Shown one piece after another: positions 2,430-42,833 of a stretch of DNA of 64,000 nt (the first letter of the stretch is position 1; each line of letters starts with the position of its first letter). The position numbers and the translations under genes were made by a program. The DNA comes from Allomyces macrogynus ATCC 38327. Taxonomy: Eukaryota; Blastocladiomycota; Blastocladiomycetes; Blastocladiales; Blastocladiaceae. The notes below the pieces were generated by a model that was not told the origin of the DNA, searched no databases, and saw only the letters and a list, made by a program, of their open reading frames with translations. The stretch is from assembly GCA_000151295.1 (NCBI GenBank), contig GG745342.1:687109-751108 (forward strand), in the 5' to 3' direction.

Positions 2430-2518
2430 TGGTGACGGGGGGATGTGTGTATATTTTCAGAATAGAAAACAGTGCCATCGTCCGTCCTTTGCTCCTCAGG
2501 CAGTCGCCGTCGCTCGGA

Positions 2519-13482: not shown

Positions 13483-16100
13483 ATGGACGCTGACCCCGCC
13501 GCGCATCCGCCGGCAACTAACGGCCGCGCCGCGGCTGCATGCACGCCAGACCCGCCACCGCCAGTGCTGCGGCCATTGACCAACCCCGTAAATGCCGACC
13601 AAGAATGGCCCGCAAGCGGCCACTATGCCGCCCCGGCGCTGCTGCCGAACGTGGCTGCGCCAGAGGGTATGTGGATGCATGCTGTGCGCCAATGCCGGGT
13701 GAGGCAGGGTGACTGACGGCAGGGATGATCATCGCGGCCACGACCGGTCACTAGCACACGCCGAGAACCACGTCGACGCTAATCTACTCGCGGCGTCATC
13801 GTCTTCGATTGGCGCCGCGGTGTTACCGACCGGCCACGACAACGCCATGGCCGAGGCCGCGATGCATGCCGATCACCAGCAGGCCAGCGGCCACGCCGCT
13901 GACGTCGATATGCACCTCTTCCACGACGACCAAAACGACGACCACGCGTCGCCGCTCGCCGCGCTCGACTTTGCCGCCGCATTTTCCGCGCTCGACCATG
14001 AGGCCGCGGCCGCGACCGTCGCCGCGCCCGATCTCGACACGACACGCTCCGCCGACCACGCCGGCATGATCGAGGGGTCGCATGAGCCCATGCCCACCGA
14101 TCCGCACTCGGACCAGCAACCGCCAAGCAGCATCTGCCCGGCCCAGCTGTCAATGGTGCCCGCAGCCCCCATCACGACGACCACGACGGCACCGTTCGCG
14201 CTCACATCGGTCGACGACGCCAACCTGCGCATTCTCGCGTTGGTCGCTGTCTTCTGCGACCAACTCGCGCACCCAACCTGCGCCATCTATCCCCGCGCGC
14301 AATCGCTCCCCTTGTCGCCAACCACCGCGACCACTCTCGCGTCGCACCTGGCCGCGCTGATCACGCACCCGACCGCGCTCGCCCGCCGGCTGCGCGTCTT
14401 TGCGGCGCCCACGCACCACCGCGCACTGCACACCGCACCTACCACCAAGGCCGACGCGCGGTCCATTCTCGGCGCGACCACCACGACAGCGACCCTGACC
14501 GCGCGCCTCCGCCCGCTCCTTGAGAGCACATTCACGGCCGCGTTTCCGATCACCGCGGGCGGGCGCGTCGCGTGCCCGGTCGACGCGATCCCGCCGCTGT
14601 TCGAGCGCACGGCCGATGGGACACGGCTTCAATGGGTGGATTTGCCGACCCGACACGCATCCGCCGTTTGGTGGCTATACCCAGACTTGGACGACGAAAT
14701 TCCGCCTCCGGGACCGTCGACGACGGCACTTGGGCCGCGGGCCACGGTCATGCCAGCGGTCGCGGCGCGGCGCGCCGAGGGAACGACGAGCCCTCTGTCG
14801 AGCGTGCATCCCGAGGATGACGAGGATGACGAGCATGCCGACAACGATTCTGAGCCCGACACAGAATCTGAAGCTGATGACGGCGACGGCGACGACGACC
14901 GCCCGTCCAAGCGCCGCAAGCTCGTCCCGACCACCTCCTCCACCCCTGCACCAGCGACCGCGACCACGTCCACCGCCAAGTACCCCACCTGCCCACAATG
15001 TGGCACCTCGCCGCGGTCCCCGCTCCGCCGCGACCGCGACGGCAAGCTCGTCTGCAACGGATGCCGGCTGCGCGCCGTGCGCCGGCGCGAGCGCGAAGCC
15101 GCCGCTTCTGCCGCCTCGGACGCACGCGCGACCCCACCCCCGCCGGCCGCCCCACCAGCCGCGACGAGTCCGCGCCGGTGCACGACGTGCGGCACGACGA
15201 CGACTTCGTCGTGGCGCCGCAGCGATTCGGGACGAAGGATCTGTAATGCGTGCCGGTTGTGCGAGAATCGCCGACGGCGAGCCGCGGAGAAGGCCGCGGA
15301 GAAGGCGGCTGGTGGAGGGGCAAAGACGGTGGGGATGGACACGCCGCGCCGCGCGGCGGCGGCACGGGCCGCGGCGCGCGTGCATGCGGCGGTGGCGACG
15401 GCGTCGCCGTTGGAGATCGGTGCGATTGACCATGACGAGCACGGGGACATGACCGACGCCGGCGCTGCCGCCAGCGCGGTTTCCGACACCTCGTCCCTCT
15501 CCGCACCGCCCGATGATGAGGACGACGATCTCGACTCGGGGTCCGACCGCGAGCACGAGCGCGCACACGCGGCGCTTCCCGACCCCGCTCCCGCTCCACC
15601 ACTCCCCGTGCCGGTTCCCGTCCCCGCACCAGCATCGTCCGCGGCGACGCCCATTTCGTGCGCCGACTGCGGCGCGACGTCATCGTCGACCAAGTGGCGC
15701 AAGCATCCGGTGATGGGACTCACGCAGTGCAACAAGTGCTACCACCGGTCTCGCCGCCGCCGGCTCAAGGCACTCGCGTCGTCGCCGATCCCGCCCGTCC
15801 CCGGCCCGTCTGCTCCTGCGCGCGCGAGTGGGGCAGCTGCGGGAGGACGCCGTGCGGCGGCGGATCGGGCTGCCGCGCGACTCGCGCCGCCCGTGACGAC
15901 GAGCGACGCTGACGCGGCTCCGTCGTCGGACGACGACGACGATGATGATGAGGTTGGGATAGGGAGGCGGCGCAATTCCGGCCGCCGGTCGGCGCGGCTC
16001 CAGAGCCAGTGCGTCGTGTGCCGCACGTTCTCGGCGACCGAAGTATGCACGCCCTGTGCGCTCGGAATTCCGAAGGGGAAGGCGCGCGATGCGTGGCGGC

Positions 16101-16154
<54 letters not shown>

Positions 16155-17842
16155 TGGCGCAGGCGAACCAGCCGCCGATCACGGTGCCGGCCAGCGATGT
16201 GGAGATGAACATGGGCGAGGTCGCGCCGGAAGCTGGGACCGCCGGCGAACGCGCGTCGTCATCTTTGTCAAGCGCGGCAGCGGCGCCGACGTCGTCGGGT
16301 TGGGCGGGACCGGCGAGACGGTGCGCGCAGTGCGGTGTTGCGCGCACGTCGTCGTGGCGCAAGGGCAACGGTGGCAACTCGATTATTTGTAATAAGTGCT
16401 ACTGCGAGGCGAGGCGGCATGCGGCACGGGCAAACACGACCTCGTCCGATTCCGAAGACCAGTTCCACGCGCCGGCGTCGGGGGATCACAACGGCGATCG
16501 CGGCGCGCTGCCGCAGGTGCCGGCCGCGGGCATGGGCGTGCCGGACGTGGTCGTCACGAGCCCCGATCAACAGCAACCGCCGCCGCCAGATTCGCACCTT
16601 ACCCACGAACCGACAACGCCCGCGCCCGGCGGCCCAACACATCAACTCTCAGCCGCGTCCTCATCGACCTCGCTCCCTGGCATTGTCGACTCTGGGCTCG
16701 GCACCCCCGCGCGGAACCGGTCCCTTGCCGATCTGCCCGCGTCGTCGTCGTCGTCGTTGACCCCGACCCCATCGTCGACGAAAGGCCGGTCGTGCTGCGA
16801 GTGCGGTGCGACGCGGTCGTCGAGCCGGTGGCGGAAACACCCATCCGGGCTTGGACTCATGTGCAACAAGTGCCACCACCAGTCGCGCCGCGCGGCAAAA
16901 GCGGCGTCGGTCGCGCCGTCGGTCGCGAGCGATGCACTGGCCACGGCCGTGGCTGCCGAGGACATGCCTGTACCGTCGTCCGGACCCGGGGGTGCGGAAG
17001 GGATTGATCAGCTCGTCGCGGCCCTGCACCACGCGATGGACGAACCCGCAGCCCCGTCGAGCGCGGCACTCATACACGCTTACCCGCACCTCCACCTCCC
17101 GCACGAGACGCGCACGCCGTCGCCGCTGCGAGGCCCGCCCGTGGCGGCCGACGTCTCTGGCCCCCTGCGGCGCACGCATCTCAACTTCGCGATGATCTTG
17201 TGGTCGGCGATCGCCGCCGACCACGCGCAGCATCCGCGGCGCGTGATTTACAGCAAAAAGTTTGCGCTCGACGAGTCGCTCCACCTGACCCCCGCCGACC
17301 AGGCGGCCCTCGTGCACCACGGCGTGCAGTGCATTGCCGCGTGTCTGCACCGGCCTATCTGGCAGCAGCCGGCGAACGCGCCGAATTTGGTCGCCGCCGC
17401 AAATGTCGAGCAGGCGTTGTTAGAGATTCGCAATCCGGTCGCGACCCATGGGCGGCCTAAGGACGTGCATGTGCCCGCGATGATGCAACGGTACCTCGCA
17501 AATTTGATGGCGACGTGGCAGGAGGAGGGGGAGGGGTGGGTCACGCGGTGCGGCCGCGTCGTTTTGCCGATTTTGACGAGGCCGGTCGTTCGTGGGCGCG
17601 TGGCACGCGCGGCGTGGACGCCGATGGCGGGTGCAGAGGTGTTTTGGGTGCCCGAGGAGGCCGGCGTGGCGCATTTGACGGCGATGGAGACGCGCTCTGG
17701 CAGCAGAGAGGACGCAATGTGGATGGATCACGGCGATGGGGAGCGTGATGCCGACCTGCCGCAACAGCTACAACAACAACAACAACAACAGGTACGCGCG
17801 TCGCGACCTGATTTGCCGAGCCCATTCGAAAGTGGAGACTGA
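13483..17842 (+). CDS. Copy 1: GATA-type multi-zinc-finger protein with NLCIALF-type end domains
   Basis: Exon 1 is 13483-13666 and exon 2 starts at 13755 after an 88 bp intron (GTATGT...CACTAG, phase 1). Read to the TGA at 17842 the protein has 1,423 residues. Order: one divergent NLCIALF repeat at about residues 215-370 (NLRILALVAVFCDQ, then AIYPRAQSLPL); an acidic stretch and a basic SKRRK; GATA-like fingers near residues 472, 536, 695, 916 and 1075, each CxxCG, a central W/R patch, then CNxC; a shortened Cx2C-x7-Cx2C element near 813; a Gln run; and a terminal repeat variant at about 1203 (NFAMILWSAIAADH). GATA fingers bind (A/T)GATA(A/G) DNA, so a nuclear DNA-binding role is likely. A GTACGC donor at 17792 and an acceptor at 17832 would join it in frame to the next finger frame, giving 1,780 residues, but that intron is only 41 bp. 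Confidence 0.75.
16106..16153 (+). repeat. (CAG)16 tract coding polyglutamine
   Basis: Sixteen CAG units in frame in the GATA-finger gene encode a Gln run between the short Cx2C-x7-Cx2C element and the next finger. Gln runs are common in transcription factors. The pure codon repeat suggests length polymorphism. Confidence 0.9.
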
Positions 17843-17929
17843 CAACACGCCGTGGCCGACGCTATTTTCCCGCCCACTTGCCTCCCGCCGTCGCGGCCGA
17901 TACCCTGACCAACGTCGCACCGGCGTGGA

Positions 17930-18954
17930 TGCACGCCCTCGATTTCAAGCAACCCGTTTTCGACCAAAACCATTCTTTGAACTTGATTTCCAACAACAAC
18001 ATCAACCATTCCGACTACCCGATTCCCGGCCTCGCGCCACCACCCCCACCCCCACCCCCATCAGCTCCGCCGGCGGTCGATCCGCCGCTCATGGTCACGC
18101 TCCGCCGCGCGGGCCCTGTTGTCCCAGGTGCCGCGCCTGCCGCGCTCACCGAACCCGTTCTCGATACCCCCAACGCGCTGGCCGCGTCGGCCGCGCATCA
18201 TCATCAACCCGTCTACTTCCCGTCGCATTCCCGGCAAGGCACGTTCCCGGCGGCCTCGGTCTCGGCGTCGCCGCTCATTTCCACGGACCCACGTATCGCC
18301 GCCGCTGCCGCTGTCGGCCACACGAGTTACTACTCCCCGCACGCCCAGCACGGTAACTACGCCGCCGCGCCCAGAGGCCACGACGACGACGACGACGACG
18401 ACGACGAGCCCATGGACCTGGTCGACGATGACCACTACTATTACGACTACGGGTCCCCGCAACCGACCCCTGGAATCCTGTCCCCGCTCGGCCTGCAGTC
18501 GCCGCTCATGTCGCCGCATCCCGGCGGCCGCCAGCGCGCGTACACGACTTACCCGCAAGTCGTCTACCCCGCGTACCCCTTTCTCTCTTCTCCTGCCCCC
18601 GCACCGCGCGCCGCGCCGTCCGTGTCGGCGTCGGCAAACGCGACCGCGGCGCGGTGCACAACGTGCGGCACGACCTCGGCGAGTTCGTGGCGGACGGATC
18701 CGTTCTCGAATACCGCGCACTGCCGGAGGTGCTACCGGTCGGTCATGGCTGCGCGGGTGTGTGTCACGTGCGCGTCGTCGACAGCGTCGTCGTGGCGGCG
18801 AGACGCCGAGGGGCGCACGCAGTGTAACCGGTGTAATTTGCGTGCGCGGAGGGCCGCGGCCGCGGCCGCGGCGCAGGGGGGTAGTACGCCGGACGCGCCG
18901 CCGGCGGTGCCGGCAAGGAGGGGGAGTAGTGGGACGCCACGCGGGTCGCGGTGA
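17930..18954 (+). CDS. Two-finger GATA-like protein or 3' exon of copy 1
   Basis: An open frame runs from about 17833 to a TGA at 18952-18954; the first ATG is at 17930. The protein has a Pro run, an Asp run with DDEPMDLVDDD, and a Tyr-rich patch. Near the end are two adjacent GATA-like fingers: RCTTCGTTSASSW with CRRC, and VCVTCASSTASSWRR with CNRC. Only 87 bp separate the stop at 17842 from this ATG, so a separate promoter seems unlikely, and the frame is phase-compatible with the 17792 donor of copy 1. I therefore favour a 3' exon of copy 1 over a separate gene. The terminal stop overlaps a strong GTGAGT donor at 18951, so the transcript may continue into the next unit. Confidence 0.55.
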
Positions 18955-19091
18955 GTTGGAGAAGAAGAAGACATGAGATGTGGGGGGAGCGACGGACGTG
19001 AGGAGAACAACGCAGCTTGACATAACACGAGTACGACACGAGTACGACACGACACGACACACGATACGCGACGCGGCACGACGCGCGCCGT

Positions 19092-20804
19092 GTGGAACTG
19101 GGAGGGAGAGTCGGGGGGACACCAAATACATTCACCGTTCATGATAACCCATCACCAATCATCAACCTGATCACTTGCCGCTGCGGCACGGTCTGCCGCC
19201 CAAGCCAGGTCGTGACCGACTCGCGCGCGCTCGCCGTCATCGCCACGCACAAAGGACCAGCACGGGGGATTCCACGCGGCCGCCGCCAACGTGGAGCACA
19301 GCGGCCCGCCGAACTGGGCAGAGCTCGAAGGAGCGCTCGGATCGCACAGGCTGCTGGCAAGTCGCGGCCAACCAGCGCTGTGCCACCGCGCGGCTCCACG
19401 TCACTTGATATCTCCCCCTCGCCAACGCTCTTGCTCCTGCTCGACCGCTCTCCTCTTGTCGGACACATCGTCGATCCCGCCAATTTGAACTTGGCGCACT
19501 CCTGTTTAGCGACACTTTACCTGCCGGCGAACCGCACCAACCTGGGCGAGATCCTGGCCGCTTGGGAGTCGCACGTGAAGCGCGCCGCGCACGTCGAGGG
19601 TCATACCGCCGACGCTGCGTTGCTGTCCGATTGCGGCGAGTCGGAGGCGTACAAATGGCGTCAAGATCCGACCAGTGGGCGCTGGACGTGTAACACCTGT
19701 CGGCTCCGGCGTCAGCGCCCGGCCAATTTTGTGCCGCCCGCTCCACGGTCTCGAACTGCGACAAGCCCGCTCCCAAACCAGCTGTGCGTGCCAAATGGGT
19801 TGAACCCAAGACGCGAGAGTGCCTTTGGCGGTGATTCTGGCCGAGGTGGGCCCGAGTATAGTTGTCGTCTGGGTGAGAACGGTTTGGACGAACGCAGTAA
19901 CCGGCGTCGCACCAGCTCGCCGGCGCCGTCGCGCTCGCAGAGCCAGAATGGCCGTCAACCTCGGCCGTCGCCCACGGGAAGGCCATGTGTCGGCTGCCAA
20001 GTGACGACAAGCAAGCAGTGGTACGATGTGGGTCGGTATTGCGCCAGCTGCGGTCTCAAGCGGATTCACGCACGCAGGCACTCGCCACCACTCGACGGCC
20101 GCGGCCGAACGGATGGCTCGCCGTCGAGACTGAGCGCACCGCAGCGCCGCAACCGCGTCCGAGACGAGGCCCAGCCCTTGGACAGCGACGGCATCGGCGC
20201 TGCCCATGATCGCCGCCGCGTGTCCGAGCACGAGTCAGCCGATGCGCGCTATCCCAAGCGGCGGCGCACGTCGACGCTGCGCTGCGCGTGCGGTGCCACC
20301 GGTGCTGCCGGCGACGCGACTTGGTCCCGCAACACGGCGGCCAACCTCGTGTGTCGTGCGTGCCAGGACCCGACCCGGACCCGCGCGTTGCCGGTGCCGA
20401 CAGTGCTGTTCACTGTGCCCATCACGCCGCAACCGAGTCCAGCCTCGGTACCGGTCACAGCAACCAGCATCATGCTGCCTGGCACCGTCGCAAACGCACC
20501 CGGGCGCCGTGACGTGGTCGGTTCCCGCGACACCTGCCGATTCGAATGCGGGCGCGAGCACCGGTGCGGGTGCGAGTGCGGGGTCCACGCCGTCGCCGCT
20601 CAACGGGTCAACCTTCGAGCGTATTTTGGCCATGGGAATGAGAGCATTTGTGGTGATGCGCACGCTGCGCGGGCCGCATGTGGTGGGGAGCCCGGCGCCG
20701 CCGAATCCCGAGACTTGATTCGACCGGCAAGGGGCAAGGGCGGGATGCGGTGTGTGATTGTCCTTGGTGCCGGCGTTACCGGCGTCGATCGACGCCGATC
20801 TTGA
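19092..20804 (+). CDS. Damaged domain-B zinc-finger unit of copy 1
   Basis: This frame is paralogous to the domain-B parts of copies 2 and 3. It has the start of domain B (CLATLYLPANRTNLGEILAA, about 19500-19590) and then jumps straight into the first finger (DCGESEAYKWRQDP, CNTC). About 200 residues of the helical domain found in copy 2 are missing, and so is the first Cys of that finger. A later finger is intact (PCVGCQ...CASCG), followed by a CACG...CRAC element. The third finger of copy 2 is absent. After about 20500 the homologous-looking Ser/Ala-rich tail continues in another frame, to a stop at 20716-20718. No ATG precedes the conserved part, so it either uses an upstream exon or is decaying. 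I see no sequence expected to keep this finger functional. Confidence 0.5.
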   Translation: MELGGRVGGTPNTFTVHDNPSPIINLITCRCGTVCRPSQVVTDSRALAVIATHKGPARGIPRGRRQRGAQRPAELGRARRSARIAQAAGKSRPTSAVPPRGSTSLDISPSPTLLLLLDRSPLVGHIVDPANLNLAHSCLATLYLPANRTNLGEILAAWESHVKRAAHVEGHTADAALLSDCGESEAYKWRQDPTSGRWTCNTCRLRRQRPANFVPPAPRSRTATSPLPNQLCVPNGLNPRRESAFGGDSGRGGPEYSCRLGENGLDERSNRRRTSSPAPSRSQSQNGRQPRPSPTGRPCVGCQVTTSKQWYDVGRYCASCGLKRIHARRHSPPLDGRGRTDGSPSRLSAPQRRNRVRDEAQPLDSDGIGAAHDRRRVSEHESADARYPKRRRTSTLRCACGATGAAGDATWSRNTAANLVCRACQDPTRTRALPVPTVLFTVPITPQPSPASVPVTATSIMLPGTVANAPGRRDVVGSRDTCRFECGREHRCGCECGVHAVAAQRVNLRAYFGHGNESICGDAHAARAACGGEPGAAESRDLIRPARGKGGMRCVIVLGAGVTGVDRRRS

Positions 20805-21151
20805 CCGTGGCCCGCACGAAAGCAGGCAGCACATAAGGAGTGTTGTGTGTACATTGTTTTTTGGAACAGAAGTATTTAACGAGTGTTCGGCCTTTCATTT
20901 GATTTCTCTTTCCGCAAAAGACGGGCCAGCCAGCCTGGACAACGAGCAGGAGACACATCACAAACAGAAAGTCAACAAATCACACAAAAGTGACACGAGT
21001 GATGCGAGGCGCAAACTCGGTGGGCAACAACAGAAAACGCAAATAAGCCAGGTCCATTTCTTTGGAAGCGACGCCGTGAAGCCAAACTGTACCTGGCCCC
21101 TCCTCCCCGCAACGACCAAGAAAAGACGCTGGCGACCACCACCAATTCAAC
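20805..21151. other. Spacer before copy 2
   Basis: About 350 bp between the domain-B unit of copy 1 and the leader ATG of copy 2. It is relatively A-rich (for example near 20955-21000) and probably holds the 3' end of copy 1 and the promoter of copy 2. No gene seen. Confidence 0.45.
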
Positions 21152-24100
21152 ATGAACCCTTCAGCGCGCACGGCACTCGCCGCCGTGCGTGAAGGCCATC
21201 GTGCCAACGACGATTGCGAGCATGGCGACGACACTGTCGCCCACCGACCCGACCTCGACGACGGTCCTGCCAGCAGCGCCCGACCGTCTGCTCCGTACCC
21301 GCTGCCGCCGGAATCGATGGCATCAGTGACCGAGGAGACGATGTCGAGCACTTCTGGCTCGCAATACAGCGGTTACCACGGACCGGCACCACAAGCTCAA
21401 CGGTGGACTGCGCCGCACAGCCATGACATTATTGATGCAACAACTACCGTGCCCGTTTTGCACACTCAAGGAAACGCCGATAATGGAGGCGATGGTATTG
21501 TTGTACTGCCTTGAGATAAACGGATTGTCACTCGTGCTCATGAAGATCATTTGATGAGATAGCCGCGACAACACGCAGCACTTTGGCAGATGCGGCGGGA
21601 TGGGGGGAGGAGAGCAGGAATGCGCGCACGTTTGGTAACTTGACCTCTCCCTCTCTTCTGTGGTGCAAAGGATCCACGATTCTAACCGTGCCCCAGCCAC
21701 CTCAGTCACGTCCACCGCTGCCGGCCATGGTCGCGGTCGCACGTTGAGTTCCCTTGCAATGGCCGCGCAACTGGTCTCCGAAGGTAACGACGGCGCCGGC
21801 GAGAGCGGTCGCGCCGAGCTCGCCGAGGGCGTGCCCGCTTCGCGCGCACAGGACCCGATGGCTGAGCGTTCTTCGTCGGCGCAAGGTTCGCCTTCACAAG
21901 GACCCGGCGTGCCGAGATCGCTTGCCGACTTGACCCAGACGGACGGCAACTTGTGCATTGCTCTGTTTGTCGCCGCGTACTTTGATTTTTCGCGACATTC
22001 AGACCGACCCATTTATCAGCAGTCCTACCCACTGCCGCTACCGGAACCGGTCGTGTCGGACTTGGTCGCGACCTTGGTCGAGATGCTGTCGGTCAAGCAC
22101 AGCCATCCCGACTGCGTGTTGCGCGTGCTCGAGGCCGTGCCGCGCGCCATGCACGGCACGATCCGCTCGGCCAAAACCATGCGTAATATTGTCCTCGACG
22201 TTGCGATTCCGCCCACGACCAACAAATGGGCTCGAAACCGACGCGCGCTACAGAACCCGGAGCGCTCGATTGCCGTCGTCAATGCGATTCGGCGGTACTT
22301 GACGGAGTGGCTGCCCGCTCTGGTCACGGCCGGTGGCATCCCGTGTGCCATGGCCGCAAGCGCTGCCAACGGTTTGGCGATTGCCGCGATTCCGTGTATA
22401 TTCGGCGCCGTTGAGGTCGGAGAGCACGGGTCACGGCGCGTCCAGTGGACATTGACGCGACCCGAGGCGGCTGTCGCGGCGCGCTACTTGTGTCCGAGTT
22501 TAAACGGCGAAAATGTGGCGGCCATGGACTCGGAAATGGACGTGATCTTGGATGAGAGCGACGACGACGACGACGACGCGGGTCTGGACGCGGTTCCGCA
22601 AACGTTGCTTTCTTATCCGCCCGCGGCCAACATCCTGGTCCCGCCGCCGCCGCAGGCTGCTGTTGCTACCGCCGCTCTCGCCGCGCTGGCACTGCGGCCG
22701 CCGCCAGCGACATCGAGACCCGACCCTCTCGCCAACTTGACGCCCGCCGACGGCAACTTGTGCGTTGCGCTCTTTGTCGCCGTGCACGCCGACCGGCAGC
22801 GCAATCCGGCGCGGCCCATTTACCAGCGTTCGTTCTCGCTCCCGATTCCGGCTGACGGCGTGACAGATTTGGTTGAGGCGCTTTGCGACATTCTGAGCAC
22901 AGGCACGGGTCTCGACCGGCGCTTGCGTTCATTCCCAGTCTCCGACACCGCGCCCGGGCAGGGCACACGCGCGATCCACGCGCAGCTGCGCGTGCGCAAG
23001 ACCGTGCGCATCGCCCTGATCGAACACGTGTCAGGCTCGTCGACGCTCAACATTTCGGCGCGCAGGAAATTGGCCGAAAGGGACCCGCACCGCACGCCGG
23101 TCGTGGTCGCCAAGATTCGCGAGTACGTGACGACGTGGGCCCCGGCCATGCTCGCGGCGCCAGCGCAGGGCCTGCCGTTCCTGATTTCCGACACGGTCGG
23201 CGTCATCAAGTACCCGATTACCGCGATCCCGTGTGTGTTTGCGCTCGGCGAGGAGGATCGTGACGGGCAGCGCGTCGTGCAATGGAACCGGGAGGGCGCA
23301 GACGCGGTCCTGTTCTTGTACCCGGGGCTCGTGGACGAGTTGGGCGCCGCGGCTGGTGGCGAGAACGGCAGCGAGGCGAGCGGGGAGCCGGACGTGGGCA
23401 TAGGCCATCAGCAGGCCATGGATGTGAATTGGCACCCGGGTACAGCTGTCCTCCACCAGTACCAGCCAATCCCGACGCGCGTGCTGAGCCGGCACAACTT
23501 GCTAGCGTCCATGACGCCCGTCGACGGCAACCTGTGCATTCTGCTCTTCATCGCCGCCTGCATGGACCGGCTCGCGATGTCCGACCGGCCCTTCTACGAC
23601 AAGCTGTTCTCGCTGCCCTTGTCGGACGTCGACGTGTCTGTGTTGACCATGGCCCTGACGCGCGCCTTGACCTCGGGTGTTGGCCTCGACCGCGAAGTGC
23701 GCGCATTCCCCGACGGGACAGCGACGCCGCTGAGCATCCAGGCACCAAGTGCGCGCAAGCACGTTCGCACTCTTCTCGCTGGCGCCACGGCACCAGCTGA
23801 AGGCACACTCCAAGCCGTGGACGTACACCGATCGGTTACGCTTGCCGCGCGCATTCGCCAGTACTTGACCGAGTGGTTGCCCGTCTTGATCGACCTCGGC
23901 GGGATCCCGCTCACCGGCTCAGAATCGACAGCCTCAGTGGCTACCGTTCCGCTCGCGTTCGAGTTGGTTGTGGGCGCCGATGGGCGCCGCGCGATGCGGT
24001 GGGTCGCGGCCACACCGGAGACGGCGAAAGCCGCGGAGGTCCTCTACGTGGGCATGTACGACGAAGTGGCTGCGTTGCGCCGTGCCGGCGTGCTCGTCCC

Positions 24101-30100: not shown

Positions 30101-32793
30101 TCGTTTGGCAAGCACCGCCTCGCGGTACAGAGCCGCAGCAAGAGCTCGTGCCCATGACCGTGCCCCACGCGCTGCGGCTGATCGCGAACCCGGTCCGCAA
30201 GCGAGGCTCCCCGCGGTCGGCCCGGCTCTCCACGTTTGTGGCCGAGTACATTGACGCGCTTTGCGCCCAGTGTGATCCTGCGTCTACCTGGACGACGCCC
30301 TCTGGTCAAACGATTCCGCGCGTTCTCGACCACGACCCAGCCGCCCTCGATGGGGCCTGGACCTTGACGTGGAGTGCTCAACTCGCGTCGTCGGCGGTCT
30401 CATTTTGGGCCCCAGACGGAACCGCGTCGGTCGACTACAAGCAGGTCCGGCTGCGGCGGCCCCAGCCGGCAAGCTCGAAAACGACCACGCGACCACCAAT
30501 GGCGACGTCGAGTCCAAGTCTTACTCGTCCTCTGCCAACGGTTCGATTCGATAGCAACTTTTTCGCGTTTACTTCTTCCATCGTCCTCATTTGCCTCTTC
30601 CCTGCCCTCTAGAACCGTCCTGTCGGCCTTGAACGCACTGCATCCGAACTCCGGGCATTGACCAATCGGTGCCAAGTGCGACTATGCCGTCTGGTCGGGC
30701 GACTCGAGCAGCACATGCTCGCGACACTCCACCTGCCAGCCAACCGCGGCAACATGGGCGAGGTGCTGGCCACATGGTCATCGCACGTCAAGAGCACGGC
30801 GTCGGCTGCGTCCTTAGACCCGACCACGGACGAGGACGATCTGGCACCGTACCTAGCCTCTTTCCTCGCGTCGCAACTCGTCACCGAGTTCTCAACCCGG
30901 GTCGCCTCGCTCATGGACGCGGACGCAGAGGTCATGTGCCGCGCCGTGCGAGACGTGATCGAGCGCATCCATGATCTCGCCGATGATCCGGCCACTCAAA
31001 CCGTCTACCTCTCAGGGCTCTACGATAGCGCGGCGCCGTGGGTGCAGGCCATGCGCGCCGCACTCGACGCGACGTGGGACCTGTTCCGCATGCTCAACCT
31101 GCACCGCGCGCCGACGCTCGCGGTCGACGTGGTGCGCGATGCTGTCCTCGAAATGGTCACGGTCCTCGCGACGCTCGCGCGTGCCGGCGTCCGTGCCGAG
31201 TTCCCTGCACTCGGTTGCGGGTACGACGCGCCCCGGATGGTGGCCATGGGCCGGCCGGCATTCACGCCGACTGCTCGTCAAGAGCGGTTCCCGGACCCGG
31301 CGACAGACCCGTTAACACCGCAGCTGCAAAGTCCATCCGACGCGTGGTCGCCGCTGTTGTTGACGAGCCACCCGGCGATTCCGCCGCCCGTGACGCCCTC
31401 GCCGCGACCACCACCACCCTCTTTCGGTTCCCCCTCCCACGACGCGAACCATGGCCAAACCAAGAAGCGGCCGCGTCCCGCTGAGTCGGAGCACGCTGCG
31501 GCGGAACCTCGGTCCTGCGTCGATTGCGGCGACACCGAAGCGTTTGAGTGGCGCCAGGATCCGATCACTGGCCGCTGGATGTGCAACACTTGTCGCCGCC
31601 GGCGCCAGCTCTCGGCCAACGTGGTGCCGCTGCCGTTGGTGCCAACGTTGGTGCCAAGCACTCACCCGACACAATCTCGTACGCCAGGTGCAGCCGACTC
31701 GGGACGCGATACCATTGCGCCCGGCTCTGGGCGGGCCGAGTCCGCGCAAGGCGTGGCCCATGTCGCCGTGGAAGAGTCGCCCGTGCCCAGCAAGCGGCCC
31801 CGCACCGAGCCGCCGGCGCCGCCACTTCCCTCGCCAGGCCAGTATGGTCGATTGCCTCGGCCGTCGCCCACGGGATCGCCGTGTGTTGGCTGCCAGGCGA
31901 CGACTAGCAAGCTCTGGCATGAAGCCGGTCGGTATTGCGCCAGCTGTGGCCTCCGGCGGATCCACGCCGCGCGCAAACAAGGTGCCGTTTACCATGCCAA
32001 TTCCTCTTCGGCGCCGAGCGCACCGCCTCGCCCCGACCCGGCCCGGAGCGACGCCGAGCCTGGCAGCAGCGTTGGTGCAGGCGATGGTCGTGGCCGCGCC
32101 ATCGATGAGGAGCCGGCCGATGCACGCTCGCTCAAGCGGCGCCGCGACTCAATCGAGACGATGTACACGCTAGGCCAGAGTTCACGTGTTCCTCGGCCAT
32201 CATCCACGGGACTCCCTTGCGCTGAATGCCAGACGAGCACGAGCCTGGTTTGGTACGAAGCGGGCCGCTATTGCGGCAGTTGTGGTTGCCGACGAATCAG
32301 CGCTGCGACCGCGGCGTCCAATCAAGCGACGATGCCGTCGGGACCGAGCGTGTCGGGTCGGCCTGACTTGGCGAGCGATGAAGCTCAGCCCGCGGGCAGC
32401 GACGCCATTGGCACCGTCCATGATCGCCGCCGTGCGTCCGAGCAGGAACCGACCGACGTGCCCTCGCCCAAGCGGCGGCACGTCGAGACGTTGCACTGCG
32501 CGTGCGGTTCCACCGCTCTGCCCGATGACACGACATGGTCCCGCGATATGCACCGCAACCCCGTCTGCCGTGCGTGCCAGGAGCGGACACGGGCTCACGA
32601 GGTGCCGATTACGGCGGTGCCCATATCGCCGCAACCACGGCCGCCCGCGTCGCCTGCGGGTGCAAGCAACTCGCTGACGGGTACGCCACAGCAGGCACAG
32701 CCTGGCGCAGCGGCTTCGTCGGTCGAGGCGCCTGTGAGCACTCATGCAAGCGCAAGTGCCGAGCAGCCCGAGCGCGCTGCCGACTCGAAATGA
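21152..32793 (+). CDS. Copy 2: giant protein with nine NLCIALF repeats, terminal variant, domain B and four fingers
   Basis: The model joins 21152-21494, 21697-25930, 26001-28025, 28109-28858, 28938-30540 and 30613-32793, with all phases matched (3,711 residues). A simpler start is the ATG at 21759 (3,576 residues). Nine repeats of about 230-260 residues each open with a motif like NLCIALFAVAYDDQ, then TRAIYQ and a YPLPL-type end, and later carry RRTIR, a YLTxWIPA motif, and GQxxLRW. A terminal variant follows (NLGMIVWSAVANDK). After the 30541-30612 intron comes helical domain B (HMLATLHLPANRGNMGEVLA), then four Cys fingers: CVDC...CNTC, CVGC...CASC, CAEC...CGSC, and CAC...CRAC. Several ORF stops fall exactly on acceptor TAGs, as expected for spliced exons. 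I do not recognise the repeat. The fingers suggest nucleic-acid binding; the rest of the function is unknown. Confidence 0.65.
21942..30430 (+). repeat. Nine tandem NLCIALF protein repeats plus terminal variant (copy 2)
   Basis: Repeat starts lie near 21942, 22748, 23521, 24299, 25327, 26539, 27459, 28261 and 29250, with the terminal variant near 29925. Repeats 1-3 are adjacent with short linkers. Repeats 4-9 resemble one another more closely (DDQxxxPTRAIYQ), suggesting more recent duplication, and several are separated by long Asp/Gln/His/Ala-rich linkers. Confidence 0.8.
24905..25290 (+). repeat. Asp/Gln/Ala/His-rich low-complexity linker
   Basis: Between repeats 4 and 5 of copy 2 the protein is an irregular series of short units built on DQ and DQxD with Ala and His. 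Similar linkers lie at about 26110-26520 (His/Asp-rich, HVHVAHVHVDLAHEHVHA) and 27140-27440. The linkers are related to each other, while the folded repeats beside them keep a strict motif order. Confidence 0.7.
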
Positions 32794-33214: not shown

Positions 33215-36200
33215 ATGAATTCATCAGAAAGCACGGCACCCGCCGCCGTAAGTGGAAGACCTCACGCAAACGAGCACCGCGATACCGGCACTTCACGCGG
33301 CGACGACGGTCCTGCCAGCGACCACCTGTTGGCACGGCAGCTGTTACCGTATGCACAAATAATACCGCTGCCGCTGGTCCCGTCAATGATGCCACCAACG
33401 ACCGAAAGAACGGCGCCGTCAACCTTTGGCGCATCATGCAGCGGTTACAGCATTCCGGCACCTCATCCTCAACAGTTGGCGTCGGCGGGCAGCTTCAACG
33501 CGGCTGTCAACACGAGCCCTGTACCATTTCCGCTCGTTCAGCGAAATAACGTCGTTGGGAACGATGGTATTATTGCGCCGCCTTTCTGGACGGATTGTCG
33601 CTCATGCTCCTGACGTTCGCCCATGCTCCTGACGCTCGTTGGCGGGATAGTCGAACCCACAGCCGCATTTGACAGTGCAGCAGGACCAAGGACTAGCAGC
33701 CCACATGCGCGCGCTGATGGTACCTTCTCTCCCGGAGGACCTCTCGTACTTTTTCTCGTGCGAGGAACCATGCTGATCAGAGATCAACGACCATATTTAG
33801 CCACTACCAGTGCCGTGACCAAGGGTCGCGGTGAGCTGGCCAAGCTGCTGCTGCCCGCACTGACCCCAGCGCCGCCACCGCGCATGCCCGAACCGAGCGA
33901 CGTGACGCTCAACACGGTCCCGTACGACGACCGCAGCTTGTCCATCGTCCTGTTTCTCGCCGTCTACCTGGACCAGTCGCGAAACCCGAACCGCGCCATC
34001 TACCAGCAGTCCTACCCGCTGCCACTCAGCGATGACGATGCAACCGCGATTACGACGTTTTTGATTTACGTCTTGGCCACCGACAACGAGGTCGACCGCA
34101 CGATTCGTGCCTACAGCTCACGACGTGAGGAAGGGTTCCGAAGTGCGCCGCTTGCAACGGGATTTGGCGACAGCCCGCCGAGATCGCTCGAAGTGGTTCG
34201 CACCATTCTCACCGACATGATTGCCGGCGACGTGAACCCGGAAACGAAGGGGGTTGCGTGCACCGAATCATTGGCGGCAGTCGACTTGCATGGCGATCCT
34301 CGCGTTGCTCGTCGCGTTCGTGGGTACCTGAACCTGACCAGTCGGCTTGTCTTGTGCGACAGCGCGCTTCGTTTTGGCGTTTCCACGACTGTGGCTCCCG
34401 TCGACTGCCCTGTGCGCGCAATTCCTGTCGTGCTCGCCGAGGCTAGTAGTGGGGATACGCGGACCGTGTGCCGGTGGGCCAATTTCGTGGGCGACGCAGA
34501 TGCAGTCGCGGCCGCGCGCTGGTTCTACCCGGATCTGGACCACGAACTGAACCACGGAGCTGACGGCAACGCACCTCTCGCCGATGGGACACCGGCCGAC
34601 TCGCGCAACGAGGAGGAGCAGGACCTGGCTGCCGTGCGCCCCCCATCCGTCCCGCCCGAACCTGATTTGCCAGCGCCGCTCGCCGAGCTGACCTCGATTG
34701 ACGGCAATCTCTGCATTGTGCTCTTTGTCGCCGTGTACTGTGACATGCGCTCGAACCCGACGCGACCAATCTACCAGCAAGCGCTCTCGCTCCCGCTCTC
34801 CGACTCGGCTGTGACGCAATTGACCGACGCACTGCTCGACATCCTGGCGACTGGATCCAATCTCGACCGGAGATTGCGCTCGCTCGCGCCGTCGTCGGCC
34901 CTCGCGGCACACGTCCGACCGTGGACGAAAAAGCAAGTGCGCAATACTCTGGTCGAATGCGCTACGCACCCACGAAAGTTGAACTTTCGGGAGGTGGCGA
35001 CGCTGGCCCAGAACAGCCCCCATCGCGCACCAAAAATCATTGAGCGGATTCGAGATTACCTGACGATTTGGGTGCCCGCCATGGTGGCTGCTGAAGGGAG
35101 TGGTGGGGTGCCGTTTGCGACGCCAGCGAAGCCGAAAATTGACTACACGATCAACGCCATCCCGTGTATTTTCGAGGTCGCTGCAGGCGTGGACCGTGCA
35201 TCGTCACTCCCTCTCCCGCTCCGATGGGCAGTGGCCAAACCCGACGCGACTGCTGCCGCGCAGTTTCTGTTCCCCGACTTGGAGAGCGAGCTTCGGCCGC
35301 ACGCTACATCTCGCTCGGTTTCCCGCTCGTCAACCCGATTAGCGTCCTGCTCGCCAACCTGCTCGGCGTCATCCCGTCCACCCTCCTCGCTATCAACGTT
35401 GTCGACTCCCAGCTCTCGCACCATTGGCGTCGACGGGGGCACGGAAATGAACGACGCCATGTCTTCCGGCGACAGTTCTGGGCCACATCGCTCACGGTTT
35501 TCTCTTGACGACTTGACGGTGCTCGACGGCAATTTCTGCATTGCCCTCTTTGTCGCCGTATGCGTGGACCGGCTCTACCACCCGCAGCGCGCAATCTACG
35601 AGCAGTCGTTTTCGCTGCCGATTTCCGACGACCACTTTACCGAGCTCGTCGGGGTGCTGTGCAACGCGTTGACGACGGGCCACGGCACCGACCGCCGGCT
35701 GGTCGGGTTCGAGTTTGTGCGGGCTCAAGCACGTCATCCCCCAACCGCGAGTGTCGCCAACCAGAGACTCGGGCACGAACGCACGGCGAAATCCATGCTC
35801 CTTGACTGCTTGGCCCTTGACCCCCAAAGCAGCAAGCACGAGCGCCAGTGTATGCAAAAACGGAGGAAGGTGCCTGCTCTGCACTGCTCGCCGGTCGTGC
35901 TCGCCAAGATTCAGCAGTACGTGGCGGTGTGGGCCCCGGCCCTGCTCGACGCCGGCGGGCTCCCGTTCTGCAGTGCGTCCTCGTCGAGTGCCGCTGACGA
36001 ACCACCATTTACTGCGATCCCGTGCATTTTTGCCGACGCTGGCGGCACGAGCGTGGATGCAGCTGAGCACCGGTCAGTGCGGTGGGCCACGATGACGGAG
36101 GAAATGTTGAGCGCTGCTCACTTTCTCTGTCCTGGTCTTGATATCGAGATTGTGGCCATGCCCGATGCCGACTTGGAGGCGAACGTCGACCGAGACGTGA

Positions 36201-39200
36201 GCATGGGCGATTTGGCGCAAAGTCCGCTGGTCCTGCTGCCGCCCCCGCCGCCGCCGCCGGTTCTCGCCGACTTGACCACGGTTGACGGCAACCTGTGCAT
36301 TGCACTGTTTGTCGCCACGCACATGAACCGGCTCCTGTGCCCGGACCAGCCGATTTTGCGCGAGTCCTATACGTTGCCCTTGACCGACGATGTCGTGGCC
36401 AATTTGACCAAGGTCCTGACCCACGCTCTGACTGCCGGCAATGGCCTCGACCGTATCTTGCGTGCGTTCCAGGGTCTGAAGCCGAACACGACCGATCCGC
36501 ATAGCAGCGTCTTGATCCGGACCCTCTCGAAGCGCGTTTCGGCGCGATTCGCCCTGGTCGATTGCATTGTCGTGCACGAGACCGTTTTTAAGGACAAGAA
36601 CGCTCGCCGGCGATTTTCATGCGACGACGTGCATGCCTCGCCCGTGATCGCTGGGCAGATTCGACGCTACTTGACGGAATGGCTGCCGGCCTTGCTCGAG
36701 CACGGTGGCATGCCGTTCCGTGTGCCCGGCGACGACAATGCAGGTGGAACCATTTTCCCTGTGTTCGACCGAGTCTCCGACGATGCTGGCCAAGTATCGA
36801 TCCGGTGGGCCGAGTCGACAGCCGAGCGATCGGACGCAGTGCAGCTGTTGAACCTAAAATTCCACGACGAGACGAATAGTGCGTCGTCGCTCGCACCGCT
36901 GATGTTGACGTTGCCGGCTCCCAAGTTGCCCCCCGTCCTCCGAGAATTGCGCCCGATTGACGGCAATCTCTGCATTGCGCTCTTTGTGGCCGTCGCCTGC
37001 GACGCGCACGTGCATCCGAAACGCGCCATTTACCAGCAAACGTTCTCCGTGCCCATGCCCGTGGATGTGGTCGCGACCATGACGGCGGCGCTGGTCGACA
37101 TTCTGACGGCGGGCGTCGGCATGAAGCGCACGATCCGCGCGTTCCCGATGCGGCACGCCGGGCAGGACCCGGACGCGCTGCGCGCAACGGCCGAGCTCCC
37201 AAATTACTTCAAGGTCGTGCGCCTGCTGCTCGCGCAGCTCGCGCGGCCCGCTCTCCGCACCGACGACCTCGCGGGGGTCTCAGCCCCGCACCGCGCTCCC
37301 GCCGTCGCCGACCGCATTCGCCGGTATCTCGTCGATTGGACGCCGGCACTCGTTGCCGCGGGCGGCCTGCCGTTCCGCACCAAAACGGGCAAGACCTCCA
37401 GCGAGTACTCGACGCGCGCCATCCCGTGCATCTTTGATCAGGGCATCGACGAGGTGTCCGGCGAACACGTGCTCCGATGGGCCGTGACCGCGCCGCACAA
37501 GCAGCACGCCGCGCGGGATTTGTACCCAAAGTTTGACCAAGAGGTGGGCAAGCGCGCCGCGGCCAACCTCGGCGACGACAAGCCGGTGGACGGCGACACG
37601 GAACAAGGACTATCCACCAACGACGGCAACTTGTGCATTGCCCTGTTTGCCGCCGCCGCGCTCGAAGATCAGCACCAGAACCTGGGTGCTCGGCCAATCG
37701 ACCACGACGAGTATCCAGTCCCGCTCGATGCCGCGCACGTCGCGTCGCTCGCCGACCGCTTGGTGGCACTGCTCGGCACGGCCTTGAATTCCCGGATCAC
37801 GGCGTTTGCTATACCCGAGTACGCCGCGCGCATTCTGGCTATCAACGGCACGCTCCAGAAACGGCGCACGGTGCGCACAATCCTAAACGAGCTCGTCGAG
37901 CGAGAGTCGGGACCCGCCGCGATGAGCAAGACGCCGCAAACGCACGAGGCCGTGCGCGACCGGATCGAGCAGTACCTGACGGTCTGGGTCCCGGGTTTGA
38001 CCGAGAATGACGGCACTATGGGGTTCCCGATCCCGGCTGGTGTCGTGGACATCGACGCGATCCCGAGCGTGCTCGAGGTGGTGGTCAACGCCGACGGGCA
38101 GCGCGTGATGCGCTGGACCGATTTGGCCGCGCTCGGCCGTGCCGCGGCCGCGGCGTTTTGTCATGATTTGGCCTTGGGTGACTCCGACAACGACGACCAC
38201 GACGTCGACGACCGCGCCGGGCCGGCATCGCGCACCGCGGCCAGGACTCAGGTCCGGCATGCGCCAGCGACGTCGGTCCCGGCCGACGACCGGCTCCTCG
38301 CGTCGCCATGGACGCTCGCCAATTTCGCGATGCTAGTGTGGTCGGCCGTCGCCGACGATGTGCGCCACGACCCGAACCGCGCGATTTACAGCACGTCGTT
38401 CCACATGACGACCGACGATGGCAACGCCAACCGTCACGACCTCGTCGCGCACCTCGCTCATTGCTGCATGGCCTCGGCCGCGCACGTCGTCCTGCAGGCG
38501 CCGCCGCCCGGCGCCTCGCACACTGACCTCGTGCCCATGACCTTGCCCGAGGCGCAAGACCTGGCCGTCAATCCGACCCTGAAGCAAGGGAGACGCAAGC
38601 AAGTCGCGCTCGAGAAATTGGTCGGCGCGTACCTGACCGCGGCGCTCGGCGCGGTGCGGAGTAGCGAGACGTGGATGACGCCCGCGGGCGTGGCCGTGCC
38701 GTGTGTGTTGGCGCGGGACCCAGGTGGGGAAGATAGGGTGGTGTGGAATGTGCAGCTCGCGGTGGCGGCAGAGCCGGTGACGTTTTGGGCGCCCGACGGT
38801 GCCGAGCCCGTGGGGCACAAGCAGATGCGGCAGATGGGCAAGGCTGAGCGGAGCGCGCGCACGCCGACGCCGGCGGTGGTGGGCCAGACGACGGCTCGTG
38901 GACGCGATTCGACTCCTCGGCGTGATGCTACCCCTCGCCGCGACCTGGTTGGGCTCTTTCCGAACCAAGTGCCTGCGCGGGTTCAACTGGTATGACTCCT
39001 TTCCTTTCAGATCCCTGACCATCATTAACCTTCCATTCACATTAACGGCGACATGTAGGACGTGGCCGTGGATACCCCGGACGCCACGCGAGCCCTGGCC
39101 GACCAGTGCCACGCGCAGCTGTGCGCGCTCGTCGACCGGCTCGCCGCGCACATGCTCGCCACGCTCAACCTGCCGGCCAACTACTACAACACGGCCGCAA

Positions 39201-40690
39201 TCCTGGCCGCATGGGAGACGCACGTCAAGAACGCCACCGCCGACGCCGCGTCGCTGGCTCTGGCCCGCGACACGAACCTTGAGCACTTGGCGCAATTCCT
39301 CGCCGCGTCCCTCGCATCGCAGCTCGCGACCGAGTTCTCCGCCCGCGTCGGCGCGGTTTCCGATCCCGATGCCGCCTCCATCTGCCACGCGGCGCACGCC
39401 GTGCGGCAATGTATCCAGGACCTCGCAGCGAGTCGGGCCGCCGAACCCATCTACCTGTCGGACCTCTACGATAACGCGGCCCCCTGGGCACAGGCGATGC
39501 ACGCGGCGCTTGACGCGACCTGGGAACTGCTGCGCACGGTGAACGTGCATCGCGCGCCGGGCCTCGCCGTGGATATCGTGCGCGACGCAGTGCTCGAATT
39601 GGTCGTAGTCTGCGCGACCCTGGCGCGGGTGCACGTGCGCGTCGAGTTCCCGCCGCTCGGGGGCGCGTTTGATGCCGAGCGGATGGCCAAGGTCGGGCCG
39701 CCCATGTTCACGGGCGCGACCCGCGGCGATGGGAACGATACCGCGGCGGAAGCCCAGCACCAGCAGAAGCTGCTTGTTGTCGCGGCAATTACGCCGTGGC
39801 TCACGCGCACCGACGACGGCACGCGCGTCGTGCCGCTCCGCGCCGAAGTCATGTGCGGGCGCCTGGTCTTGTGCGCCAGCGACCACAACCGTGCTCAGCG
39901 CGATGCGAGTGCCGCGGCCATGGGCGACTCGGCCGTGTGGACGATTCCCGACACCCCCGCGGCCGCGACCGCGACGCCCGTGAAATGGACCGCGGCCATC
40001 GGCTCGCGCTCAGCGAGGACCGACTCGCCCAGTCTCGCGGCGCCGGCGCGGCTCTGGTTGACGCCCGTGGACCGGACGCCACGGCCGCCCGTGAAACGCG
40101 TGGCCAAGTTGCACGTGTGCGCGGATTGTGGGTTGACCACGGAACGGCAGTTCAAGATGGATCCAGAGACGGGCCGCGCGCAGTGTCGCCGGTGCCGGCA
40201 GCGCGACCTGCGGCGCGCGCGGAAGAAGGGCGGAGCCACGGCCACGGCGTCTGTGGTGGAGCTCGATGACGTTGTGATGGCCGAGGCCAAGCCGGATGCG
40301 CGGCCGGCGCTGCCACTGCCGGCGTGCGTCAGGTGTGGGACGACGGGATCGCAGTGGTGGAGGACGGCGCCGCGCGGCGGGCTCTTGTGTACTGCGTGTG
40401 CGGCGGCCGGACCCGCGGCGGCGGCAGGTGCTGGGAAAGGGGTGCGTCAGCGTGCGCGACCATTGCTCGAGGTAGAAGAAGAGGAGGAGAGTGTGGGCGA
40501 GGACATGGTGCTGGACGGTGGGGAAGACGAGGAGGACGGCGGCGCGGTGGGGGAGGGCCAAGACGGCCCGCTCGGCGGGCTCCTTGACGATGACGAGAGC
40601 AGCGACGACAATAGCGACGGCGAGTACACGGAGTCGACCGCGCCGGCGGCGAAGCGGCGTCGCGTGTCCGGCGCGCCGCGGTCGCGGTAG
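33215..40690 (+). CDS. Copy 3: giant protein with six NLCIALF repeats, terminal variant, domain B and two fingers
   Basis: The model joins 33215-33566, 33801-38989 and 39059-40690 (2,390 residues); an ATG at 33623 in the long exon is the alternative start (2,332 residues). Six repeats begin near 33925, 34699, 35525, 36284, 36959 and 37622, with DGNLCIALFVAV as the typical opening. The terminal variant near 38311 reads NFAMLVWSAVADD. The 69 bp intron 38990-39058 (GTATGA...GTAG, phase 0) sits where copy 2 has its phase-0 intron, and links the repeats to domain B (HMLATLNLPANYYNTAAILA). Two fingers follow: CADCG...CRRC near 40118-40200 and CVRCG...CTAC near 40324-40400. The C-terminus is very acidic and ends with a basic KRRR. 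Function unknown; nuclear nucleic-acid binding is likely from the fingers. Confidence 0.65.
33925..38830 (+). repeat. Six tandem NLCIALF protein repeats plus terminal variant (copy 3)
   Basis: Repeats follow one another with short linkers and no intron in the whole array, unlike copy 2. Most resemble the DGN-type repeats 1-3 of copy 2 rather than the DDQ-type repeats 4-9. The sixth has an extra residue or two in the first block (ALEDQHQNLGARPID). The terminal variant lacks the RRTIR block but keeps the order of the other conserved blocks. Confidence 0.8.
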
Positions 40691-41057
40691 GGGATGGGCG
40701 CGTTTGACGCGGTGTGAAGAGGCAAACGGGGCGATTGATTGTTGGAGAGCAGAGTATAATTTCATACACGGTGATGTGAGCAATGATCATTCGTTCGCGC
40801 GCATGGACAAGGCGGAAATGGCACAAGAACGGCTGTGTGACGCGCACGCACGAGCTTGTGACTCGATCGAGCCAAGATCGCCCTTTGACCAGGCGGTCGC
40901 CCACGACCAACTGGGCGACCACCACCACGACGACGACGCCGACCACAGCACGACGCGGCCACCATGGCGTGGGACCCGCCATTTGGCGCAATGCCGCCAC
41001 CGCGACCCGTCACGCAGCTCGCGCACCTCGCGCCGCCCCTCGCCGCCCCCGCCACCG

Positions 41058-42833
41058 ATGTCATCTTCGTCACGCCGCCGCGACTCCCGGTCGCGCTCGC
41101 GTTCTCGCTCCCTGTCTCGGTCGCTGTCTCGCTCTCTTTCGCGGTCGAGTCCGCGGACGCCGCTCCGCGGCTGGCGTGAGGACCGCAGTCACCATGACCG
41201 GGGCCGCTCAACGGCCGACACCCACAGCCGGGCGCCGTCGCGCGACCGCTATGCCGTCGACCGTCTGCCGCGCATCCCGCGTCATGGCGATGACCGCGAC
41301 GACCGGTCGGAGCGCAGCCGGACGGACCGGGATAGGCACCGCTCTGACCGCGACTGGTCCGACCGCAGCCGCACGGACCGGAGCCGGGCAGATCGTGACC
41401 GCGACCGCGATCGCAAGGACCGAACCGACCGCAAGGGCCGAACCGACAGCAAGACGGCGACCGCTCGGAGCGGAAGAGTGGGCGGGACCGCGACCGCGAC
41501 TACCGCACGGATCGCGAACACACCGACCGCTCGGACCCCACGGACTGCGCGGACCGCGGTCGCTCTGACCGCGAGGCGTAAGCGTGAACGCCATCGCGGC
41601 GACTATCGCATTAAGCGTGAGCAGGAACGTGACCGCGACTACCGCATCAAGCGTGAGGACGAACGCGACCACGACGACTGGAGCACGCGTGAGCGTGATC
41701 GTGACCGTAGTGACCGCGCTGATCGAGACCGCTCCGACTGGGAGCGCTCCGAACGGGACCGCGCCGGCCGTTCTGACCGTGGCCGCACGGAAAGCCGCCG
41801 CCGGCCCGCCGACGAAAGCGATAGGCGCCACGGCGACCGCCGCCAGGGACCAACCAAATTCGACGAATCTGACGAGGGCGCCGGTAGCAGCGCGACCTCG
41901 GCTCCGCACTGGTCGGCGCGCTCCAATGCGCGTCGCCGCCGGTATCATGATGGCGAGGACCATAGTACGATCATGTGCTGCAGGTGTAATGGAGTGTCCT
42001 ATTCACATTGAACTAACCTCACGAAAGATGTGCTCACAGAGGACGACCCGCGCGCACCGGCGTCTCGGCATACGGACCACGGCCGTCGGCGCCTGCCGCC
42101 ATCGCTCGGCCCGCCCACGCGTCACGCATCACCACCGCCGTCACCTCGACCTCCCGCTCCGCCAATGCCCATGCGGGTCGCCCCGCCGCCAACACCAGTC
42201 GCTCCGCCATCGCGCGCTCGCCCTCAACCACCGGCACGTCCCGCCCTGCCAGCCGCCGACCGCCGCCCGTGGTCGCCATCGCCGCCATCATCTCCGGCGG
42301 CACCTCCACCGCCGCGGCGCGACATGCGGCTCAGCGACGTGTCCTTCCACAACTGCAACCTGCTGATTGCCCTGGTCGTGTCTGTGTTTTACGACCAAGT
42401 CAGCCACTCCCACCGCCCATTCTACCGGCACACGTTCACGCTCCCGCTACGGCCACACGATGTGGCCGCGATTCAAAAGCACTTGATGCGCGTCTTGGGC
42501 GCTTGGGTCGACCACAACGTACGTGGATGCAACGTGATCAAGGTGTCAGAATCCGACTCGAGGCCGCCCCCCCCCCCCCCCCTGCCGGCATTTGCGCCGA
42601 CGCCGTGGTTCAACCCGCCACGCGACGGCGTGCGCGTCGCCACCACCACCGGCGGGCCAGTCACGCCAAGGACACCTGCAGCCGAGACGGACTCGCCGCG
42701 GTCGTCAGGTCCGCGGACGCGCGTGCTGCGTGCAGTGCCCGGCGGTGGCGGCGCGGGACAGGCACGTGGTGGCCGGCAGGGGGCCCCGGCGGCGCCGTCG
42801 CCGTGTGCTGGGGAAATGGAGGGGCCGCGGTGA
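41058..42833 (+). CDS. Arg/Ser/Asp-rich protein fused to a truncated NLCIALF repeat
   Basis: The first exon encodes an RS run (SRSRSRSRSLSRSLSRS), then long Arg/Asp-rich stretches (DRDRDRDRKDRTDRK), like SR-type splicing or RNA-binding factors but with no RNA-recognition domain visible. A 75 bp phase-1 intron, 41965-42039 (GTACGA, ACTAAC branch-like site, CTCACAG), removes the in-frame TGA at 42009-42011 and joins a Pro-rich segment and the first block of an NLCIALF repeat: NCNLLIALVVSVFYDQ, then RPFYRHTFTLPL. The repeat ends after about 60 residues, near a GTACGT donor at 42509 and a C16 run, so a further exon is possible. The start is uncertain: the ATG at 41058 is in frame, but a better-placed ATG at 40964 (ACCATGG, MAWDPPFGAM) is in another frame. 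Confidence 0.5.
42567..42582. repeat. C16 homopolymer
   Basis: Sixteen C inside the predicted 3' exon of the RS/NLCIALF gene. If the GTACGT at 42509 is a donor, this would lie in an intron. An error in its length would shift the frame downstream. Confidence 0.85.

Follow-up and report, generated by a model that had tools for sequence, protein, structure and literature searches.

How does a row of giant genes built around one repeated protein domain arise, and what could its products do? The question is raised by a stretch of the Allomyces macrogynus ATCC 38327 genome, hereafter the window (the whole 64,000 nucleotides analysed, C61:687109-751108, from an assembly of 54.0 Mb in 75 contigs), in which five adjoining genes, designated 1, 2a, 2b, 3 and 4, appear to represent a resident tandem family of giant nuclear-type proteins. 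An earlier note, made from the sequence alone, had proposed a single gene family that pairs an unrecognised repeat with a helical domain and zinc fingers, and this proposal is supported. The building blocks are referred to here as the repeat R, the terminal domain T, the helical domain B and the C-x2-C...C-x2-C fingers. A second cluster with matching gene order, located on contig C58, is a new result.

The repeat R and its companion domains

Repeats were first collected with a hidden Markov model (HMM) built from 11 seed repeats, which recognised 39 full or nearly full copies, 15 in the window and 24 in the C58 cluster region, the two regions in which copies were counted. The final profile of 196 positions was rebuilt from 38 of these 39 copies, the omitted copy having crossed a fetch boundary, and profiles for R, T and B were searched against all six frames. 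Among the 15 full window copies the scores span 184-232 bits, with E from 3e-55 to 6e-70. The controls were ten residue-shuffled versions and one reversed version of all 1164 window frames (12,804 sequences), among which no match at E<=10 was obtained with the HMMER filters on; with the filters off, the best control matches were 7.4 bits for R, 10.6 bits for T and 8.6 bits for B. The counts of 1, 9, 6 and 1 (truncated) repeats given in the earlier note are thus confirmed, corresponding to one R-like domain in gene 1, nine R in gene 2b, six in gene 3 and one truncated R in the gene 4 remnant.

R is about 190 residues long. The profile search that the note had named as a check yielded no convincing match for R in Pfam, PHROGs, NCBIfam or PDB sequences; against PDB sequences the profile returned a single row at E<=10, a weak match to a ribosomal protein (E 0.34). 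When 38 R and six B members were scanned against Pfam, neither domain reached a cut-off (best E 0.0094 and 0.042, respectively, each from one member), and no family was matched by more than two members. Searches of IMG/VR and of 84,980 prokaryote genomes, at the sensitivity applied, also brought up no relative of R, which supports the description of the family as lineage-specific only in part.

The structure model (predicted local distance difference test, pLDDT, 88.5; predicted template modelling score, pTM, 0.84) presents R as a compact, helix-rich domain with a confident predicted fold. Its net charge ranges from -13 to +9, and in 30 of the 39 copies it differs from zero by no more than 5. 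The fold weakly resembles that of proteins with single or tandem winged helices (MukE/KITE, YceH, TFIIE, ESCRT-II), a domain with the plan helix-strand-helix-helix and a two-strand wing, from which arises the idea that R is winged-helix-like and itself contacts DNA, the array and the fingers together reading a long stretch of DNA in the manner of other arrays of DNA-binding modules. We consider this unlikely. The Z score is too low to separate a common arrangement from chance, and R gave no match to these proteins among the PDB sequences and Pfam families searched. The near-invariant polar residues across the 38 copies (N3, D15, R22, R73 and Y110) could instead mark an enzyme or ligand-binding domain that has escaped recognition, yet here there is no convincing family or PDB match, and C5, H44 and H98, which are invariant among one class of repeats (gamma, below), fall outside the near-invariant columns of all 38; such a function appears very improbable.

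Three types of R, named here alpha, beta and gamma, can be distinguished. Some gamma repeats end in VK[RK]SRxS, a basic and possibly phosphorylatable motif. Gene 2b of the window has it in three of its six gamma units (24846, 25854 and 27976), and on C58 several gamma units carry it as well. In linkers between gamma repeats (24917-24990 and 26316-26444) there are degenerate, short tandem repeats of 21-24 bases, with many Asp, His, Gln and Ala codons.

T had been noted earlier as a terminal variant of the repeat. It is indeed present in three window copies, and profile-profile comparison with R (probability 96.8%, E 2.9e-10) identifies it, at the level of sequence, as a diverged last R. B occurs as two full copies and as a fragment of 46 of its 227 positions; neither the family libraries nor the PDB gave a convincing match for it, and it can be described only as helical, its model being of low confidence. 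The cluster is laid out as follows, with splice sites, introns, 5′ exons and joined frames being predictions from sequence.

13703..18951, plus strand: gene 1, with an R-like domain, five GATA-type fingers and T, then a second open reading frame (ORF; 17812-18951) with two fingers; the join between the ORFs is not fixed
14216..14701, plus strand: R-like domain of gene 1, matched by the profile as two neighbouring pieces in the same frame (positions 1-98, 56.5 bits; positions 121-188, 28.5 bits)
14990..16873, plus strand: five C-x2-C-x17-19-C-x2-C fingers of gene 1, each followed by basic residues (Pfam GATA)
17174..17674, plus strand: T domain of gene 1 (222.7 bits)
19026..20801, plus strand: gene 2a remnant, with a B fragment (19491-19628), one finger (19986) and a tail; matches the C58 gene 2a tail (68% amino acid identity over 287 columns)
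21152..21511, plus strand: probable 5′ exon of gene 2b; a homologous stretch precedes window gene 3 and both C58 counterparts
21639..32793, plus strand: gene 2b body from the open-frame start, with nine R, T, B and three fingers; acceptor not fixed
21942..29760, plus strand: nine R of gene 2b (three beta, six gamma), by profile
29908..30459, plus strand: T domain of gene 2b, by profile
30652..31302, plus strand: helical domain B of gene 2b, by profile
31516..32283, plus strand: three GATA-like fingers of gene 2b (x18, x14, x14), by motif filter; Pfam GATA below cut-off
33215..33610, plus strand: probable 5′ exon of gene 3, by homology
33623..40690, plus strand: gene 3 body, with six R, T, B and two fingers, by profile and inferred intron
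33929..38194, plus strand: six R of gene 3 (one alpha, four beta, one gamma), by profile
38300..38842, plus strand: T domain of gene 3, by profile
39089..39748, plus strand: helical domain B of gene 3, by profile
40118..40399, plus strand: two GATA-like fingers of gene 3, by motif filter
42012..42830, plus strand: gene 4 remnant, with a truncated R (42351-42539, the first 65 profile positions); on C58 the counterpart carries three R, B and five fingers

Within a unit, successive ORFs are connected by introns. In gene 2b the predicted introns lie at 25931-26000 (70 bases), 28026-28108 (83 bases) and 28859-28937 (79 bases), with GTGCGT or GTATGT donors, and a fourth predicted junction at 30541-30612 has a weak donor. 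Comparable junctions occur at matching places in C58 genes 2b and 2a; for the third junction in C58 gene 2b, the matching candidate ranked second by a simple score. Joined from the open-frame start, the frame of gene 2b encodes 3616 amino acids and that of gene 3 (predicted intron 38990-39058) 2332 amino acids, each with its sole stop at the end. Genes 2 and 3 share a plan in which a short 5′ exon is followed by the R array, T, B and a tail with fingers and basic motifs resembling nuclear localisation signals (NLS). The common order of blocks that had been claimed for four units holds for genes 2b and 3; in gene 1 the R-like domain is followed by five fingers, then T, then two more fingers, unit 4 survives in the window as a remnant, and a fifth, decayed unit is present at 19026-20801, in which R was not found by profile.

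The homeologous cluster and the age of the arrays

The region C58:480001-560000 matches both the window flanks (one side inverted) and the cluster, with identical gene order. Synonymous divergence (dS) between the clusters is 0.37-0.61, and 0.44-0.51 in three flanking blocks, values that identify the two clusters as homeologs or old duplicates rather than alleles. From this one block a whole-genome duplication may be inferred.

Gene content has been sorted between the two regions by reciprocal loss, as genes 2a and 4 survive on C58, gene 3 in the window and gene 2b, whole, on both. C58 gene 2a has nine R, T, B and one finger, where the window keeps the tail remnant at 19026-20801. C58 gene 4 retains three R (one each of alpha, beta and gamma), B and five fingers, compared with the single truncated R of the window. 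In C58 gene 3 the array is down to three R, and the second of these, like T and B, is divided between two frames; the gene therefore seems broken, barring an assembly error. The readable part of C58 gene 1 is 80% identical in amino acids over 380 columns, with a ratio of nonsynonymous to synonymous divergence (dN/dS) of 0.23; the remainder reads N, gene 1 on C58 being largely masked.

All nine repeats of window gene 2b have as their nearest relative the C58 gene 2b repeat of equal number (72-88% identity), and for each of them the nearest other window repeat is only 37-55% identical. In a maximum-likelihood tree of the 39 repeats, seven of the nine positions form clades that hold the window 2b, C58 2b and C58 2a copies; the exceptions are position 4 of 2a, which groups with position-5 repeats on a long branch, and position 5, within which the order is unresolved. 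This position-wise matching implies that the arrays are old, and the earlier description of them as recently expanded is not supported. As judged from sequence comparison, the nine-repeat array predates the duplication that gave rise to 2a and 2b, which in turn predates the split of the homeologs. The tree (midpoint-rooted, with a long-branch warning) makes the deeper joins tentative, that of alpha above all, and suggests an order of growth in which an alpha-beta-gamma core, still visible in C58 gene 4, would have been enlarged as beta and gamma units duplicated within the gene, prior to gene duplication and cluster divergence.

The variation in R copy number, from 1 to 9, together with the broken or remnant state of genes 2a, 3 and 4 on one homeolog, would suit a family of ordinary transcription factors in which the arrays serve as passive spacers. 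This is improbable in view of the position-wise conservation, the confident fold, dN/dS values below 0.6 and the 21 invariant columns among the 18 gamma repeats.

Selection, zinc fingers and a possible nuclear role

Comparison of the homeologs gave dN/dS values of 0.21-0.23 in two blocks of gene 1, 0.26-0.38 in three blocks of gene 2b, 0.40 in the 2a tail and 0.48-0.57 in three blocks of gene 3. The family range over these nine blocks is thus 0.21-0.57, compared with 0.06-0.10 in three flanking blocks, from which the cluster genes are seen to evolve faster than their neighbours. For single repeats, values of 0.18-0.54 were obtained in 12 of the 15 window repeats, those with a homeologous partner; repeats R3-R5 of gene 3 are without a partner on C58. 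Together with the shared intron positions, the family range, which reflects change mainly at silent sites, argues that these are real genes. Tandem duplication, copy loss and protein change faster than in neighbouring genes are also what one would expect if the cluster acted against invading or repeated DNA, by binding or silencing it, and changed in the course of an arms race. Such a conflict role has a low probability, however, because dN/dS remains below 0.6 in all blocks tested, the repeats are not generally homogenised and no target is seen.

Thirteen fingers were counted in window plus-strand ORFs (gene 1 seven, the 2a remnant one, 2b three, gene 3 two). As in GATA transcription factors (PF00320), the fingers of the first ORF of gene 1 combine the spacing and basic residues listed above, a W is present in four of the five, and the ORF scores 59.3 bits over five stretches against a Pfam cut-off of 26.8; unlike those factors, gene 1 has seven fingers in addition to R and T. 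The second ORF of gene 1 scores 22.0 bits, below the cut-off, which on C58 is exceeded by two fingers of gene 4 and, narrowly, by one of gene 3 (28.0 bits). All four cysteines are kept in the C58 homeolog in all three fingers of gene 2b. Putative NLS-like basic motifs occur in the tails of gene 2b (31465, 31792 and 32134) and gene 3 (40652) and just before the fingers of gene 1.

Tentatively, and at somewhat less than even likelihood, we propose that these proteins act as DNA-tethered nuclear scaffolds or recruiters in transcription or chromatin. They would be located in the nucleus and held on DNA by their fingers, and the R array would form a scaffold resembling beads on a string, its units compact, helix-rich and roughly neutral. 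Each R may keep a partner contact of its own, which would explain why repeats are conserved position by position without homogenisation.

Several observations weigh against this proposal. For genes 2a, 3 and 4, one of the two homeologs, and never both, is broken or reduced, which indicates that single copies are dispensable. The 2a remnant and gene 3, broken on C58, also have dN/dS below 1, so that the ratio records past constraint and is weak evidence of present function. Window genes 2b (20.7 bits) and 3 (22.9 bits) do not reach the PF00320 cut-off, and two of the three 2b fingers have a 14-residue loop, a departure from GATA factors; the GATA-like label applied to the whole family is accordingly firm for gene 1 and loose for these two. 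Finally, we infer partner binding by R only from charge, a weak fold resemblance and positional conservation.

A bolder and highly unlikely version is that R is a new winged-helix-derived module, and that up to nine R plus GATA-like fingers constitute a modular reader in which each unit has its own DNA or chromatin partner. C2H2 arrays, TALE and PPR proteins are repeat-array readers of DNA or RNA, and the present proteins share with them many tandem units per protein, here with a DNA-binding-type tail. They differ in that the R units are long and position-conserved, with no recognisable hypervariable code. We know of no arrays of six to nine winged-helix units combined with zinc fingers.

Genomic setting and significance

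The window has a guanine-plus-cytosine content of about 65%, and no tRNA was found in it by ARAGORN. Directly before the truncated R of gene 4, the ORF at 40476-42008 abounds in SR, DR and ER dipeptides in the manner of an RS domain, and RE-rich sequence lies ahead of gene 4 on C58, near 533.8 kb. Beside the cluster is an ORF encoding a homeodomain (43680-45650, minus strand; Pfam E 4.7e-11). Further ORFs encode tetratricopeptide repeat (TPR) proteins at 2496-4271 (minus strand) and 6103-9908 (plus strand), the latter being strongly conserved (90-96% amino acid identity) and inverted in the homeologous region. The ORF at 1100-2272 matches MDM10, which has a fungal association.

Elsewhere in the genome there are two microbial-type rhodopsin matches (L032 and L033), and the one on contig C63 shares its ORF with a guanylyl cyclase. 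Rhodopsin-guanylyl cyclase fusions are not known outside blastoclads, and this one is compatible with a Blastocladiomycota host. Its closest solved relatives are cyclases of the fusion type: 6sir and 5oyh, both entitled 'nucleotide cyclase', and 6ao9 and 6aoa, both entitled 'bacterio-rhodopsin/guanylyl cyclase 1 fusion protein'. PMC4046227 describes such a fusion in a fungus.

For the family itself, R stands out as a domain without a match in the libraries searched that is nevertheless present in 39 copies in two clusters of one genome. The homeologous pairs, present or past, allow array growth to be ordered, repeat loss to be asked about and reciprocal loss to be watched, which makes the family suitable for studying why the repeats of a giant repeat protein stay different from one another. 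Were the modular-reader reading to prove true, these very long proteins of early-diverging fungi would form a new class of address readers. Regulators of zoosporic fungi are poorly known, and the cluster contributes a candidate family of them.
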